A stretch of 64,000 nt of DNA, taken from Sphingomonas donggukensis (GTDB taxonomy: Bacteria; Pseudomonadota; Alphaproteobacteria; Sphingomonadales; Sphingomonadaceae). Of the stretch, positions 17,574 through 58,439 are shown one piece after another; position 1 is the first letter of the stretch; every line of letters starts with the position of its first letter. The stretch covers positions 2,108,001 to 2,172,000 of the forward strand of contig NZ_CP098401.1 of assembly GCF_023674425.1 (NCBI RefSeq), given 5' to 3'. Under the pieces are notes generated by a model, which saw only the letters and a program-made list of their open reading frames with translations, did no database searches and had not been told where the DNA came from. The translations under genes and the position numbers were made by a program.

Positions 17574-17621
17574 AGGGAGCGGGGCGGGACGCACTGAAAT
17601 TCGAGCCGCCCCTCCCAAATC

Positions 17622-17740
17622 CCGTTCGCCTCGAGTAGCCGTCGAGCCTGTCGAGACGGCGTATCGAGAGGTCCGTGCCTCAGGAGAGCATCTCTCGATA
17701 CTGGCTCTCGACAACCTCGATCCCTACTCGAGGCGAACGG
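17622..17740. repeat. 119-bp inverted repeat element, copy 1
   Basis: It begins CCGTTCGCCTCGAGTAGCC and ends CTACTCGAGGCGAACGG, so the ends are inverted copies. Inner self-complementary parts include TATCGAGAG / CTCTCGATA. A second copy of the same length lies at 38830-38948. It occupies most of the SURF1-thrC gap and may end transcription. The rest of the gap shows no clear feature. Confidence 0.85.
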
Positions 17741-19252: not shown

Positions 19253-19330
19253 GCTTCTCGACTTCGCTCGAAGCGAACGGGCAGAGAGGCGTTTCCCACC
19301 CACCGTTCGTTTCGAGCGAAGTCGAGAAAC
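19253..19330. repeat. 78-bp palindromic repeat pair, arms in reversed order
   Basis: Two 28-nt arms (19253-19280 and 19303-19330) are inverted complements with a 22-nt spacer. The CGAACGG ends point inward, the opposite order to the copies at 48715 and 51904. The right arm ends 6 nt before the ATG of the methyltransferase gene and takes the place of its ribosome binding site. Confidence 0.88.
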
Positions 19331-31352: not shown

Positions 31353-31442
31353 CCGTTCGGGCTGAGCCTGTCGAAGCCCTGCCCTTCCTTTCATCCATCG
31401 GCTAGAAGAAGGGCAGGGCTTCGACAAGCTCAGCCCGAACGG
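31353..31442. repeat. 90-bp palindromic repeat with 34-nt arms
   Basis: The arms 31353-31386 and 31409-31442 are inverted complements with a single mismatch region; they begin CCGTTCGGGCTGAGCCTGTC. The spacer is 22 nt. It is an extended form of the TGAGC-type repeat and lies in the serA-hisZ gap, 11 bp before the hisZ start codon, so it would be in a shared transcript's leader. Confidence 0.87.
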
Positions 31443-38761: not shown

Positions 38762-38829
38762 GCTAGCCACCAAACCCGATACTCACCCCAAACCCGACGC
38801 TCACCTCAAACCCAAGGCTCACCCCAACA

Positions 38830-38948
38830 CCGCTCGTCTCGAGTAGCGATCGAGCTTGTCGAGAGCGCGTATCGAGAGATACCCTCTTGTGGCACCCACC
38901 TCTCGATACATCGTCTCGACAGGCTCGACGATTACTCGAGGCGAACGG
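38830..38948. repeat. 119-bp inverted repeat element, copy 2
   Basis: It has the same length and layout as the element at 17622-17740. It starts CCGCTCGTCTCGAGTAGCG, contains TATCGAGAG / CTCTCGATA inner arms, and ends ATTACTCGAGGCGAACGG. The central loop sequence differs. It lies between nudC and the serine hydrolase gene, both on the minus strand. Confidence 0.85.
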
Positions 38949-43358: not shown

Positions 43359-43427
43359 CCGTTCGTGCTGAGCGAAGTCGAAGCACCTGGGTCGAGCCGG
43401 CCTTTCGACTTCGCTCAGGGCGAACGG
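43359..43427. repeat. 69-bp palindromic repeat, TGAGC-type
   Basis: It begins CCGTTCGTGCTGAGCGAAGT and ends ACTTCGCTCAGGGCGAACGG, inverted to each other. It lies 20 bp before the smc start, so any hairpin would be in the smc leader or the end of the DsbA transcript. Confidence 0.86.
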
Positions 43428-47577: not shown

Positions 47578-47675
47578 GCACCTCTTCTGAAGCGCCGGTG
47601 GCACGCGCGCAAGGCCCGCGAACCCGTGCGAAAGGCTTGCCTTTCACGCCCCGCGCCGCCATTTGCACCCGCAGC

Positions 47676-48689
47676 ATGAGCGCCTCGATCCACCGCCTGG
47701 GCGACCGCCGCCCGCCGTCGCTCGATCCGATGCTGGCGCTGGTCGCGCACGACATGAACCTCGTCAATCGCGAGATCCTCGACCGGATGCAGTCGGACAT
47801 CCCGCTGATTCCCGAACTCGCCGGCCATCTGATCGCGGGCGGGGGCAAGCGCATGCGCCCGATGCTGACGCTGGCAAGCGCGAAGCTGCTCGGCTACCCC
47901 GGCAACCGCCACCACCGCCTCGCCGCCGCGGTCGAATTCATCCACACCGCGACCCTGCTCCACGACGACGTCGTCGATTCGTCGGATCTGCGCCGCGGGC
48001 GCCGCACCGCCAACATCATCTGGGGCAATCCGGCGAGCGTCCTCGTCGGCGACTTCCTGTTCAGCCGCAGCTTCGAACTGATGGTCGAGGACGGCTCGCT
48101 AAAGGTGCTGAAAATCCTCTCCAACGCCTCCGCCGTCATCGCGGAGGGCGAGGTCAATCAGCTGACCGCAGTGCGCCGCATCGATCTCGGCGAGGAACGC
48201 TATCTCGACATCATCGGCGCGAAGACCGCGGCGCTGTTCGCCGCCGCCTGCCGCATCGCCGCGGTGGTCGCCGAACGGTCGGAGGGCGACGAGGCCGCGC
48301 TCGACGCCTACGGTCGCAACCTCGGCATCGCGTTCCAGCTGGTCGACGACGCGCTCGACTACACCTCCGACGCCGGCACGATGGGCAAGGACGCCGGCGA
48401 CGATTTCCGGGAGGGCAAGATGACCCTGCCGATTATCCTCGCCTATGCCCGCGCCGATGCCGAGGGCCGCGATTTCTGGCAGGACGCGGTGCTCGGGCGG
48501 CGCAATTCGGACGAGGATTTCGCCGAAGCCGTCCGCCGCATCCAGGCGACACGCGCCGTCGACGACACGCTCGCGCGTGCGCGCCACTACGGTCAGCGCG
48601 CGATCGACGCGCTCGGCCGCTTCGAAAGCGGCGCCGCGAAGGACGCGATGATCGAAGCGGTAGAATTCGCCGTCGCCCGCGCGTTCTAA
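47676..48689 (+). CDS. ispB: Long-chain polyprenyl diphosphate synthase
   Basis: A 337-residue trans-prenyltransferase that makes the ubiquinone side chain (probably decaprenyl in sphingomonads, though chain length was not determined). The first aspartate-rich motif is LLHDDVVDSSD (around 95-104) and the second is FQLVDDALDYTSD. GGGKRMRPML and the GEVNQLTA region are conserved. The ATG at 47676 starts MSASIHRLGD. A 77-bp palindrome follows. Confidence 0.93.
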   Translation: MSASIHRLGDRRPPSLDPMLALVAHDMNLVNREILDRMQSDIPLIPELAGHLIAGGGKRMRPMLTLASAKLLGYPGNRHHRLAAAVEFIHTATLLHDDVVDSSDLRRGRRTANIIWGNPASVLVGDFLFSRSFELMVEDGSLKVLKILSNASAVIAEGEVNQLTAVRRIDLGEERYLDIIGAKTAALFAAACRIAAVVAERSEGDEAALDAYGRNLGIAFQLVDDALDYTSDAGTMGKDAGDDFREGKMTLPIILAYARADAEGRDFWQDAVLGRRNSDEDFAEAVRRIQATRAVDDTLARARHYGQRAIDALGRFESGAAKDAMIEAVEFAVARAF

Positions 48690-48714: not shown

Positions 48715-48791
48715 CCGTTCGTTTCGAGCGCAGTCGAGAAACATGCCCCGGGCGATCGCTTATGTTTCTCGACTGCGCTCGAAACGAACGG
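48715..48791. repeat. 77-bp palindromic repeat pair
   Basis: The 28-nt arms 48715-48742 and 48764-48791 are perfect inverted complements with a 21-nt spacer; the left begins CCGTTCGTTTCGAGCGCAGT. It has the same length and spacer size as the copy inside hrpB (51904-51980). It lies in the ispB-HerA-like gene gap. Confidence 0.9.
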
Positions 48792-48817: not shown

Positions 48818-50263
48818 ATGACCTTCGCCGTCGACATGGGGCTCGACCCCGCCGGGCGCCCGATCGCGATCGATCTCGAGGAACTGCTCGCCACCCGTCT
48901 GCTCGTCCAGGGCAATTCGGGATCGGGCAAGTCGCACCTCCTGCGCCGCCTGCTCGAACGTTCGGCGGGGCAGGTTCAGCAGATCATCGTCGATCCGGAG
49001 GGCGATTTCGTCACCCTGTCCGACGCCTACGGCCATGTCGCGATCGAGGCGGTCGAGTATTCGCTGCCCGAGATCGCCAAATTCGCCGCCCGCGCGCGTG
49101 AACACCGCACCTCGATCGTCCTCAGCCTCGAGGGGCTGGAGATGGAGGGCCAGATGCGCTGCGCCACCGCGTTCCTGATGGGGCTGTTCGATGCGCCGCG
49201 CGAACACTGGTTCCCCGCGTTGGTGGTGGTCGACGAGGCGCAGATCTTCGCGCCCTCGGGCGGGGCCGAAGTCGCCGAGGAAGTGCGCCGCACCACCCTG
49301 TCGGCGATGGCGAACCTGATGTCGCGCGGGCGCAAGCGGGGTCTCGCCGGCATCATCGCCACCCAGCGGCTGGCGAAGCTCAGCAAGAACGTCGCGGCGG
49401 AGGCGTCCAATTTCCTGATGGGCCGCACCTTCCTCGACATCGACATGGCCCGCGCCGCAGACCTGCTCGGCATGGAGCGCCGCCAGGCCGAGAGCATCCG
49501 CGACCTCCAGCGCGGCACCTTCCTCGGCCTTGGCCCCGCCATCGCGCGGCGCCCGGTCACGGTGAAGATCGGCGCGGTCGACACCTCGGCACGCAGCTCC
49601 AGCCCGAAGCTCGTGCCGCTCCCGACCCAGCCCGTCGCGAACGGCGAGCAATGGCTGCTCGACGGCCTGATCGCGCCGCTGCCCCCTGCGCCGCCGCCGC
49701 CCCCCCCGCCGCTGCCGGTCGATGCGGTGCTGCGCGAAATGGCGCCGGTGCCGCCCACCGAATTCGAATTCCCCGCCCCCGACGCACCCGATCCGGACGT
49801 GGTCGTGTCCGACGCCTTGCGCGCCATCGTCGAGGATCCCGAATCGGCGACCCGCCCCGCGGCGGTGCTCCACCAAGATTTCGCCGTCCGCTGCCGCATG
49901 GCCGGCATCCGCCGCGCGCCGCTCGATCCCACCGCCTTCGCCCGCCGCCTCGCCGCCGCCCGCGCCGGCATCTTCGGCAAGCTCGAGGGCGAATGGGCCG
50001 AGGCGATGGCCGCCGCACAGGGGCTGCCCGACGACATGATCGGCGCCTTCCTGCTGATCGCCCGCGCCGCGCGCGAGGGGGAGGCCGCCCCCAGCGACGA
50101 GGCGATCGCCCGCACCTACGGCACTAGCTCGCTCGGCCGCGCCCGCCGCATGATCGGCTACATGGAAACCCGCGACATTATCGTCACCCGCATCGACCTG
50201 TCCGGCCGCCGCTCGATCACTATCCCGCGCCTCGGGTGGAGCACGGCATCGGCGGAGGCGTGA
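48818..50263 (+). CDS. HerA-like DUF87 ATPase with proline-rich linker
   Basis: A 481-residue P-loop ATPase of the HerA/FtsK-like DUF87 group. Walker A is GNSGSGKSH (32-40), Walker B and the acidic catalytic pair are ALVVVDEAQIFAP, and a sensor Gln lies in IIATQRLAKLSKN. The ATPase spans about 1-260. A Pro-rich linker near residues 285-305 (eleven Pro in a short stretch) leads to a C-terminal domain with a winged-helix-like end (DEAIARTYGTSSLGRARRMIG). No NurA-type nuclease is adjacent. The function is unknown; DNA translocation is a family-level guess. Confidence 0.85.
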   Translation: MTFAVDMGLDPAGRPIAIDLEELLATRLLVQGNSGSGKSHLLRRLLERSAGQVQQIIVDPEGDFVTLSDAYGHVAIEAVEYSLPEIAKFAARAREHRTSIVLSLEGLEMEGQMRCATAFLMGLFDAPREHWFPALVVVDEAQIFAPSGGAEVAEEVRRTTLSAMANLMSRGRKRGLAGIIATQRLAKLSKNVAAEASNFLMGRTFLDIDMARAADLLGMERRQAESIRDLQRGTFLGLGPAIARRPVTVKIGAVDTSARSSSPKLVPLPTQPVANGEQWLLDGLIAPLPPAPPPPPPPLPVDAVLREMAPVPPTEFEFPAPDAPDPDVVVSDALRAIVEDPESATRPAAVLHQDFAVRCRMAGIRRAPLDPTAFARRLAAARAGIFGKLEGEWAEAMAAAQGLPDDMIGAFLLIARAAREGEAAPSDEAIARTYGTSSLGRARRMIGYMETRDIIVTRIDLSGRRSITIPRLGWSTASAEA

Positions 50264-50373: not shown

Positions 50374-50428
50374 TCAACATTCGCGCCCCCCCCCCCCAAT
50401 CGGGCGTCAACTTTGTCAACATTCGCGC
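50374..50428. repeat. 13-bp direct repeats around a C12 tract
   Basis: TCAACATTCGCGC occurs at 50374-50386 and 50416-50428, 42 bp apart, and a run of 12 C lies at 50386-50397 between them. The 188-bp gap before hrpB holds little else. The C-run could slip in replication and alter promoter spacing, but no clear promoter is seen. Confidence 0.6.
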
Positions 50429-50451
50429 GGTGGCGACGGGCCGTCCACGCC

Positions 50452-52941
50452 ATGAATCTCCCCATCCACGCCGTCCTGCCCGACCTCCTCGCCGCCTTGC
50501 GCGCAGGGTCGAACGCGGTCCTCGTCGCCCCACCCGGCGCCGGCAAGACCACCGCGGTCGCCCCCGCCTTGCTCGCCGAGCCGTGGTGCACCGGCGAGAT
50601 CCTGCTGCTCTCCCCTCGCCGCCTCGCCGCCCGCGCCGCTGCCGAACGGATGGCGGCGCTCGCCGGCGACAGCGTCGGGCAAGTGTTCGGCTACGCCACC
50701 CGCATGGACAGCAAGCGATCGACGGCCACGCGCGTCACGGTCGTGACCGAGGGTATCTTCGTCAACCGCATCCAGGCCGATCCCGAACTCGCCGGCGTGT
50801 CCGCCGTGCTGTTCGACGAGGTTCACGAACGCAGCCTCGATTCCGATTTCGGCTTGGCTCTCGCGCTCGACGCGCAGGCGGCGCTGCGCCCCGACCTGCG
50901 GCTGGTGGCGATGTCGGCGACGCTCGACGGCGCGCGCTTCTCGACCCTCATGGGGGATGCACCCGTCATCGAAAGCGAAGGCCGCAGCTATCCGCTGACC
51001 CTGCGCCACATCGGCCGCGCCGCCGACGCGCGGATCGAGGACGCGGTGGCGAGCGCCGTCCGCACCGCGCTGGCGCAGGAAACCGGGGGCATCCTCGCCT
51101 TCCTGCCCGGCGTGCGAGAGATCGAGCGCGTGGCCGAACGGCTCGGCGATCCGCCCGGCGCAACGCTCCACCGCCTCCACGGCCAGATGGACCCCGCCGT
51201 GCAACGCGCCGCGATTCAGCCCGCCGACACGCGCAAGGTCGTGCTCGCCACGTCGATCGCCGAAACGTCGCTGACCCTCGACGGCATTCGCATCGTCATC
51301 GACAGCGGCCTCGCCCGCCGCCCGCGCTACGATCGCGCCGCGGGGATGACCCGCCTCGTCACCGAACGCGCCAGCCAAGCCGCGGTCGTGCAGCGCGCCG
51401 GGCGCGCCGCGCGACAGGGTCCGGGCGTCGCCTACCGCTTGTGGGAGGAAGCGGCGACCGCCGGCCTGCCGCGTTTCGACCCACCCGAAATCCTCGAGGC
51501 CGACCTGTCGGCGCTGTTCCTCGCCTGCGCGATCTGGGGCGTCGCCGACCCACGCGACCTGCGCTGGCTCGACCCACCGAGCGACGCCGCGGTGGCGGAG
51601 GCACGGCGACGCCTCGAGACACTGGAGGCGATCACCACCGATGGCCGCCCCACCCCCCACGGCCGCGCCATCGCCACCCTCCCGCTCCCCCCGAGGCTTG
51701 CGCACATGCTGGTGCGTGCCGGGGAGATGGGATTCGCGCGCGAGGCCGCGCAGGTCGCCGTCCTGCTCGGCGAACGGGGTTTGGGTGGTAACGACACCGA
51801 TCTCGAGCTCCGCCTGCGGAGATGGCGAGCCGAGCGCGGCCAACGGGCGGAGGGAGGGCGGAAACTGGCCGAGCGGTGGGCGCGGCTGGTGCGGGAAAAA
51901 TCACCGTTCGTTTCGAGCGAAGTCGAGAAACAAGCCCCCCGCGCAAACGCCGGTTTCTCGACTTCGCTCGAAACGAACGGCAACGCTATCGCCATCGCCC
52001 TCGCCTTCCCCGATCGCATCGCCCGCCGCCGCGACGCATCCGGCGAAACCTGGGCCTCGGTCGGCGGACGCGGGTTCCGGCTCGATCCGGCCTCCAGCCT
52101 CGCGCGCGCCGAGTGGCTCGCGGTCGCGGAAACCGCAGGCATGGCGTCGGGCGCGCGCATCCTGTCGGCGGTGGAGATCGACCGCGCGACCATCGACGCA
52201 CTGTTCGGCGACCGCATCGTCACCCGGCGCTTCGTCACGTTCGATCCCGCGACCGGCGGCGTATCCGCGACGCGCGAAACGCGGCTCGGCGCGATCCGCC
52301 TCGCGACCGGCCCGGACGCCGCCGCCGATAAGGACGAAATCGCCGCCGCGTTGCTCGACGGCGTCCGCACCCACGGCATCACGCTGCTGCCGTGGTCGGC
52401 GAACGCCACCGCGCTGCGCACCCGCGCCGCCTATGCCGGCATCGACACGCTGAGCGATGCGGCGCTCGTCGCCCGGCTCGACGACTGGCTGCCCCCGCTG
52501 CTCGCGGGCAAGCGCCGGCTCGACGCGATCGAGGGGCTGACGGCGGCACTGGAGGGGCTGCTCGGCTGGGACGCGCTACAAGCGATCAACCGCCTCGCGC
52601 CCCCGCGCTTCGAATCGCCGGCCGGGTCCAGCCACGCGATCGATTATGCCGCCGACGCCGGCCCGACCGTCGAGTTGCGCCCGCAGGCGCTGTTCGGCCT
52701 CGCCGAGCATCCGTGCGTCGGCGCAGACCGCACGCCGCTCGTCCTCAGCCTCACCTCGCCCGCCGGTCGCCCGATCCAGACGACGCGCGACCTGCCCGGC
52801 TTCTGGGCGGGCAGCTGGCACGCAGTGGCAAAGGAAATGCGCGGTCGCTACCCCCGCCATCCCTGGCCCGACGACCCCGCCGCCGCATCGGCGACGCTGC
52901 GCACCAAAAATGCTGATGCGCGCGCCCGCGGATCGCGATAA
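50452..52941 (+). CDS. hrpB: ATP-dependent RNA helicase HrpB
   Basis: An 829-residue DEAH-type helicase. Motif I is PPGAGKTT (27-34), motif II is DEVHER, motif III is SATL and motif VI is QRAGRAARQGPG. A helicase-associated HA2 region and the HrpB-specific C-terminal domain follow. Residues about 485-510 are encoded by a 77-bp palindromic repeat inserted in frame (PFVSSEVEK...FSTSLETNG), in the region linking HA2 to the C-terminal domain. No frame is lost. ATG 50452 (MNLPIHAVLPDLL) is chosen over an upstream ATG at 50413. The role of HrpB in bacteria is poorly defined. Confidence 0.93.
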   Translation: MNLPIHAVLPDLLAALRAGSNAVLVAPPGAGKTTAVAPALLAEPWCTGEILLLSPRRLAARAAAERMAALAGDSVGQVFGYATRMDSKRSTATRVTVVTEGIFVNRIQADPELAGVSAVLFDEVHERSLDSDFGLALALDAQAALRPDLRLVAMSATLDGARFSTLMGDAPVIESEGRSYPLTLRHIGRAADARIEDAVASAVRTALAQETGGILAFLPGVREIERVAERLGDPPGATLHRLHGQMDPAVQRAAIQPADTRKVVLATSIAETSLTLDGIRIVIDSGLARRPRYDRAAGMTRLVTERASQAAVVQRAGRAARQGPGVAYRLWEEAATAGLPRFDPPEILEADLSALFLACAIWGVADPRDLRWLDPPSDAAVAEARRRLETLEAITTDGRPTPHGRAIATLPLPPRLAHMLVRAGEMGFAREAAQVAVLLGERGLGGNDTDLELRLRRWRAERGQRAEGGRKLAERWARLVREKSPFVSSEVEKQAPRANAGFSTSLETNGNAIAIALAFPDRIARRRDASGETWASVGGRGFRLDPASSLARAEWLAVAETAGMASGARILSAVEIDRATIDALFGDRIVTRRFVTFDPATGGVSATRETRLGAIRLATGPDAAADKDEIAAALLDGVRTHGITLLPWSANATALRTRAAYAGIDTLSDAALVARLDDWLPPLLAGKRRLDAIEGLTAALEGLLGWDALQAINRLAPPRFESPAGSSHAIDYAADAGPTVELRPQALFGLAEHPCVGADRTPLVLSLTSPAGRPIQTTRDLPGFWAGSWHAVAKEMRGRYPRHPWPDDPAAASATLRTKNADARARGSR
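51904..51980. repeat. 77-bp palindromic repeat translated within hrpB
   Basis: Perfect 28-nt inverted arms at 51904-51931 and 51953-51980 with a 21-nt spacer. It is the same family as the copies at 14, 19253, 48715 and 58362. It is read through in frame, adding about 26 residues to HrpB. Its arms encode PFVSSEVEK and FSTSLETNG. Confidence 0.92.
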
Positions 52942-58361: not shown

Positions 58362-58439
58362 CCGTTCGTGTCGAGCACAATCGAGAAACCGCGCCGGGCG
58401 AGTCTGTGGCCGTTTCTCGACTGTGCTCGAAACGAACGG
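58362..58439. repeat. 78-bp palindromic repeat pair
   Basis: The 28-nt arms 58362-58389 and 58412-58439 are inverted complements with two mismatches and a 22-nt spacer; the left starts CCGTTCGTGTCGAGCACAAT. It lies in the convergent gap between the aldolase-like gene and the small secreted protein gene. Confidence 0.88.

Follow-up and report, generated by a model that had tools for sequence, protein, structure and literature searches.

Within the hrpB gene of Sphingomonas donggukensis lies a 77-bp palindromic repeat that is read in frame with the helicase, and a closely similar repeat lies between two open reading frames nearby. Is this DNA an old part of the gene that happens to look like the repeat, or was a repeat inserted into a working gene, and if it was inserted, why at this place? 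All coordinates given below without further qualification are those of the 64,000-nucleotide stretch that was analyzed (the window).

The hrpB element and its host protein

The open reading frame at 50413–52941 is open throughout. Its listed start is a TTG, and counted from the first ATG at 50452 the gene (50452–52941, + strand) encodes an 829 amino acid ATP-dependent RNA helicase of the DEAH box type. The protein scores 858.8 bits against the NCBIfam HrpB model TIGR01970 (cut-off 546.15) over residues 3–820; the Pfam models DEAD, Helicase_C, and HrpB_C are above their cut-offs and CON_HrpB alone is below (19.6 vs. 27). Its best matches among solved structures are E. coli HrpB (6heg and 6eud; E 2.4e-161), and 6heg is also the top structural match of the predicted protein (Z 49.7, rmsd 16.8 over 755 residues). 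In the phmmer alignment, residues 460–513 (54 residues) stand opposite only residues 463–490 (28 residues) of the E. coli HrpB chain.

The element occupies 51904–51980. The initial annotation described it as a perfect inverted repeat that is in frame in hrpB, and both statements hold: the left 28-nt arm (51904–51931, + strand) and the right arm (51953–51980, − strand) are exact reverse complements separated by a 21-nt spacer (51932–51952), and the element encodes PFVSSEVEKQAPRANAGFSTSLETNG, residues 485–510 from the ATG at 50452. On the + strand the left arm, which has no mismatches to the arm pattern found elsewhere in the genome, reads PFVSSEVEK and the right arm FSTSLETNG. The best ungapped arm-pairing score of this hrpB linker is 28, whereas shuffled sequences average 7.0 and never exceed 12 (single-base shuffles, with each linker of at least 85 nt shuffled 20 times). 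The 77-bp element contains no stop codon in any of its six frames, and its predicted RNA fold has a free energy of −53.5 kcal/mol. An Rfam search of 51400–52500 gave no credible match; four microRNA-hairpin models scored far below their gathering scores and were judged to be chance hits. The 77-nt copy at 48715–48791, between the open reading frames 47598–48689 and 48818–50263, had been called nearly identical. This is true of its arms, each of which differs at one position, but not of its spacer, which is different.

The AlphaFold2 model of HrpB (41 sequences) has a mean pLDDT of 86.1, and residues 485–506 are its sole internal segment with a pLDDT below 50. They lie between helices at residues 464–481 and 510–518, so the element peptide is predicted to fall in a disordered loop. 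The codons beyond the loop are under purifying selection: dN/dS downstream of the insert is 0.20 in comparison with the relative G147, and among nine pairs it is 0.06–0.20 in eight and 0.38 in the ninth, which is the most distant. The low downstream values indicate that HrpB continues to function. The initial annotation had suggested that the repeat may have no cost to the helicase; selection on the codons after the element is consistent with a protein to which the insert may be of little cost.

Alignment of orthologs supports an insertion, one of the two possibilities given in the initial annotation. With the conserved Trp codon and the Phe codon of ALAF(PDR) as its limits, the loop is 132 nt long here (51877–52008, + strand), whereas 86 of the 88 orthologous loops in which no element was recognized are 63–102 nt (median of the 88, 75 nt). 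Of the nearest relatives in the two genome sets compared, G147 (protein identity 84%) has a loop of 84 nt and Sphingomonas sp. Leaf33 (L318; 83–85%) one of 75 nt. The net gain is 48 nt relative to G147 and 57 nt relative to the median of the element-free loops; as both are less than 77, the original loop probably also lost some bases. An exact empty site was not seen among the orthologous hrpB loops, which counts against the insertion scenario favored below.

A dispersed family of palindromic doublets

The arm pattern of the hrpB element, whose family is called A here, has 129 matches with no more than two mismatches (63 forward and 66 reverse) in the 2.9-Mb Sphingomonas genome, and the reversed pattern, which served as a control, has none. 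Among the matches listed, paired arms occur at 67 places, 63 of the 66 two-unit places are arranged head to head, and the spacer is 13–23 nt long in 56 head-to-head pairs. Each arm contains a five-pair stem of its own, Watson-Crick in 149–154 of 156 half-sites, a total in which one half-site appears twice. Four of the five stem positions show at least two types of Watson-Crick pair, and changes on one side of the stem are matched on the other (TTTC/GAAA, TGTC/GACA, TGCT/AGCA, and others). Besides the hrpB element and the copy at 48715, the window contains a family A copy with its arms in reverse order (19253–19330), a diverged copy (58362–58439), and a GTGCT..AGCAC variant in which stem bases have changed in concert (43359–43427). 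It also contains a second, longer (∼127 nt) imperfect palindromic repeat at 17614–17740 and 38822–38948 (87% complementary over 120 nt), and at 31353–31442 a palindrome with 35-nt arms (97%) that starts CCGTTCGGGCTGAGCCTGTCGAAGCCC and looks like a variant of the family A arm design.

This architecture is similar to that of REPINs, which are described as inverted doublets of hairpin-forming units, predicted to form a single hairpin, dispersed, and mostly extragenic (PMC3116915). Family A is likewise a head-to-head doublet with a spacer that folds into one hairpin, and each of its units is an imperfect palindrome. It differs in that some copies lie inside genes and in that no Y1/RAYT transposase match (PF01797, E 0.001) was found in this genome, where the E. 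coli control was positive; across the genus, 16 of 151 genomes have a PF01797 match, 15 of them over the cut-off. No target duplication of 4 nt or more is present at any of the 56 family A pairs, which, like the lack of a PF01797 match in this genome, counts against the explanation favored below. The left flanks of these 56 dispersed copies are C-rich and their right flanks G-rich, which the hrpB flanks are not, and left and right flanks pair no better than shuffled partners (mean 3.54 vs. 3.51).

The initial annotation stated that genes seldom tolerate such elements, a view that needs refinement. Among the matches listed, at least six of the 67 paired-arm places are in conserved genes, where the elements are in frame: those for isoleucyl-tRNA synthetase, biotin synthase (in its N-terminal tail), a biotin carboxylase subunit that resembles that of propionyl-CoA carboxylase, an RNase E/G-like protein, HrpB, and RibD. 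The RNase E/G-like gene is the weakest assignment of the six (Pfam 26.0 vs. 25.5 bits, and below the NCBIfam cut-offs). For ten of the 12 arms in these genes the reading frame yields peptides like PFVSSEVEK or FSTSLETNG; the alternative frames are rich in arginine. The six were accepted on open reading frame and family evidence, and since the “diff” class of a codon-usage screen was left out, six of 67 may be too low. That screen, a crude model trained on long open reading frames and used for picking candidates only, found the same best frame on both sides at nine of 87 places (86 distinct), none of which passed the strict test, and by it the remaining paired-arm places look intergenic or unresolved. 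Three further candidates were set aside. The open reading frames over the elements at 989810 and 991911 of the genome are probably antisense, as long opposite-strand open reading frames end or begin near these elements, and the candidate at 1515365 has a stop codon.

Recurrent occupation of the hrpB loop in Sphingomonas

A search of 151 genomes of the genus gave 137 usable hrpB entries, and after removal of four with unmapped linker anchors 133 remained. Half-elements of five families are present in the loop of 45 of these 133. Family A, that of the hrpB element described above, occupies three loops, family B (CCCTCTCCCC..) seven, family C (CCCCTCCCGC..) 24, family D (CGTCATCCCCGCGAAAGCGGGG..) four, and family E (TCCCCTCCCTT..) seven; 34 of the 45 occupied loops have at least two half-elements. 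The similarity among families B, C, and E leaves their independence in doubt, so the five are counted as at least three unrelated kinds. Two loops scored as having none, in G104 and G073, do contain an inverted repeat. The initial annotation had reasoned that if all orthologs carry unrelated DNA at this place, the likeness to a repeat would be convergent. Half of that is true: 45 of the 133 do, mostly of other families, but that DNA is itself palindromic repeat, which argues for repeated insertion at one site and not for convergence. The reading frame is kept in 42 of the 45 occupied loops (the exceptions are G083, G024, and G124) and in all 88 loops without a recognized element.

On a FastTree phylogeny of HrpB with the loop removed, in which 43 of 134 forks are open, the loop labels require 27 changes of state when the five families are distinguished, 22 when B, C, and E are merged, and 19 for presence or absence, with gains and losses counted together. 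Sister genomes can have different families. G010 carries family A and G113 family C, and the two are 97.2% and 96.5% identical in nucleotide sequence before and after the loop, respectively; other such pairs are G031 (C) with G138 (B) and G112 (B) with G101 (E).

Within the gene, the elements are confined to the loop. In 139 loci (eight of 147 lacked one gene part and were left out), 83 half-elements lie in 10,266 nt of loop and none in the 327,871 nt of hrpB outside it. Among the named loci (62 of 65), a set that overlaps the first in some genomes, the numbers are 43 in 5,371 nt of loop and one doubtful match in the remaining 146,849 nt. Off-loop matches in the genes of L299, L259, and L267 have four or five mismatches and may be due to chance. 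The 5′ border is also narrowly placed. Measured from the first base of the Trp codon, the first half-element begins at 13–20 nt in 38 of the 45 loops: at 14–15 nt in all seven family B loops, at 15–16 nt in 22 of 24 family C loops, and at 17 nt in all four family D loops.

The family found in a loop tends to be one that is abundant in the same genome. Median numbers of genomic copies in loop carriers and non-carriers are 119 and 0 for family A, 25 and 4 for B, 70 and 1 for C, and 39.5 and 3 for D (rank tests, p = 6e-4, 0.010, 5e-11, and 0.004, respectively, values that are optimistic since the genomes are related and not independent). Abundance also occurs without occupation, as in G079, which has 120 family A matches and no recognized element in its hrpB loop, and some carriers are poor in copies (down to four for family B and six for C).

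The single hairpins in the loops of G102, G104, and G051 look like remnants, and in G054 (L061) the loop is 267 nt long and a family C element apparently encloses another palindrome, a nested insertion. In L331, L333, L334, and L343, hrpB goes out of frame at a lone family C-like hairpin in a loop of 65–67 nt; one of the four has an N at the hairpin, and assembly collapse between hairpins is as likely there as a real deletion. The contigs of L063, L064, and L067 (G123, G096, and G136) stop no more than ∼200 bases from where the aligned part before the loop ends, and that of L071 (G075) stops earlier, a pattern that a repeat at this place would give by disrupting assembly. One in-frame stop each was seen in the hrpB genes of G067:C2 and G105:C81. 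Repeat-like peptides were also noticed by eye in the HrpB loops of L304, L310, and L315 (STSLGTNE, DSRFRGNDE, and SRAKSRD); these are two Allosphingosinicella and an unclassified alphaproteobacterium, so the habit may extend beyond Sphingomonas.

Other loops and the origin of the inserts

Two of the other genes with an element in this genome show a similar pattern in relatives. In ileS the loop between FIPMD and NGATLRE contains elements in 13 of 30 loci, with 24 half-elements in 3,546 nt and three weak matches in the 80,952 nt of ileS outside the loop; the biotin carboxylase loop contains them in 11 of 30 loci, with 20 half-elements in 2,526 nt and none in the remaining 58,653 nt. These rates are not free of bias: both genes were picked for their element in S. 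donggukensis, the element was wholly or partly included in the queries, and the 30 loci in each case came from the top scorers among 41 genomes. The inserts include families A, B, C, and D or close variants of them and at least one further kind (G020). As judged by eye, family D is read there in other frames than in HrpB, and the entry point moves by several codons in both loops.

Taken together, these observations are very probably explained by non-autonomous palindromes, similar to REP doublets, that are dispersed through the genome and whose in-frame copies survive in disordered loops, with the HrpB loop colonized repeatedly. Each element consists of two 28-nt units, each containing a small hairpin with covarying bases, which are placed head to head, and the whole is able to form one long hairpin; a mobiliser would have spread copies through the genome in the manner of REP doublets. 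Selection would remove most insertions into genes, and the survivors would be those that entered in frame and fell in disordered loops. In HrpB the landing loop begins at the end of a helix, just after a conserved WxxL, and it has been recolonized within Sphingomonas, usually by a family abundant in the genome concerned. The insert would each time be translated as a tolerated, probably functionless peptide, and would later erode or be replaced. The very sharp 5′ border in hrpB is not expected from tolerance alone; it counts against this explanation and leaves room for a target preference.

Such a preference could in principle be the whole cause, if the mobiliser favored the DNA of the loop, or a single-stranded structure formed by it, whatever the protein tolerates. 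The near coincidence of the 5′ borders of the unrelated families B, C, and D speaks for this, as does the complete lack of matches elsewhere in 139 hrpB genes, in which other surface loops presumably exist. On the other hand, the entry point shifts by several codons in the biotin carboxylase and ileS loops (by eye), hrpB does not share the C-rich and G-rich flanks of the dispersed family A copies, and all the unrelated families would need the same preference, so we regard it as rather unlikely. We give an equally low rating to a broader scheme in which the HrpB, IleS, and biotin carboxylase loops would be standing docking sites, to which a shared mobiliser other than RAYT preferentially delivers unrelated palindromes that turn over between sister species. 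The loops would then be mostly translated selfish DNA, and the family present would record the one active in that lineage.

A single insertion in the ancestor of the genus, since diverged or converted from other copies and lost in many lineages, is less probable still. Families B, C, and E are similar in design, the element borders nearly coincide, and a clade of 14 genomes that all carry family C is best read as having one inherited insertion. Against this, families A and D have no visible sequence likeness to C, A and C alternate between sisters with ∼97% identical hrpB genes, the loop family tends to be one abundant in that genome, and 88 of 133 loops are in frame without a recognized element. 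It is very doubtful that the peptide encoded by the insert has acquired a function, for example in tuning the flexibility or RNA binding of HrpB; the frame persists, and the frame shared by ten of the 12 arms in six genes implies that the peptide is not a matter of indifference, but relatives have unrelated peptides or, in many cases, none at this place, the segment is predicted to be disordered, and the frame preference can be explained by avoidance of the arginine-rich frames. Finally, some relatives do have a frameshift or contig end at or near the element, but that the S. donggukensis hrpB is itself a pseudogene or an assembly artifact is scarcely credible for an open 829-codon gene with DEAD, Helicase_C, and HrpB_C above their cut-offs, a C-terminal part under purifying selection, and an assembly of one contig.

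Protein-coding palindromes are already known, both as the Rickettsia palindromic elements (RPEs) and as intragenic REPs. RPEs lie in frame in conserved genes at solvent-exposed places (Ogata et al. 2000, 2002, via PMC10969869 and PMC3767692); different RPE groups can sit near the same site in orthologs, either because the site is a hotspot or because one insert has diverged, and a common origin was favored for RPE-4, -6, and -7 (PMC3767692). The hrpB element is likewise an in-frame insert in a conserved gene, absent from orthologs and in a part predicted to be disordered. It differs from RPEs as they are described there in length (77 bp, compared with 100–150 bp), in being from another order of Alphaproteobacteria, and in the alternation of unrelated families between close sister species.

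E. litoralis and S. alaskensis are members of the order Sphingomonadales. Dimers of GTAG and CGTC REPs have been reported inside genes of several bacteria, including tRNA synthetase genes of these two species, and two Xanthomonas have different REPs at nearly the same position of recB; the tolerance of intragenic REPs was proposed to depend on flexible linkers or loops (PMC3733652). Neither tag is present in family A, and recurrence is seen here over 133 genomes and not two. A CGTC-tagged REP has a CGTC (or TGTC or CCTC) tag, an 8–9 bp stem, a 4–5 nt loop, and a CCA tail (PMC3733652). Family A does not agree with this description, as CCGTTC precedes its five-pair stem and 12-nt loop; family D does, since in other genomes it reads CGTCATCCCCGCGAAAGCGGGGACCCA, with the CGTC tag and CCA tail. 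The main text of PMC3733652, whose supplement lists intragenic REPs, does not name hrpB. Apart from that paper, the open-licence literature searched had no apparent treatment of palindromes in sphingomonad genes or hrpB, and alternation of unrelated families at a single codon throughout a genus was not found in it.

For the clustered Rickettsia palindromes, the choice between a hotspot and one diverged old insertion was left open, with a leaning to the latter (PMC3767692). Since many closely related Sphingomonas genomes carry unrelated elements in the same loops, the question is directly testable in this genus, down to a pair with ∼97% identical genes. Selfish DNA seems to settle time and again in a small number of flexible protein loops. 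The occupants of these loops show, as a map made by nature, where housekeeping enzymes permit insertions, and they suggest that loops of this kind can disrupt assemblies and lead annotation astray.
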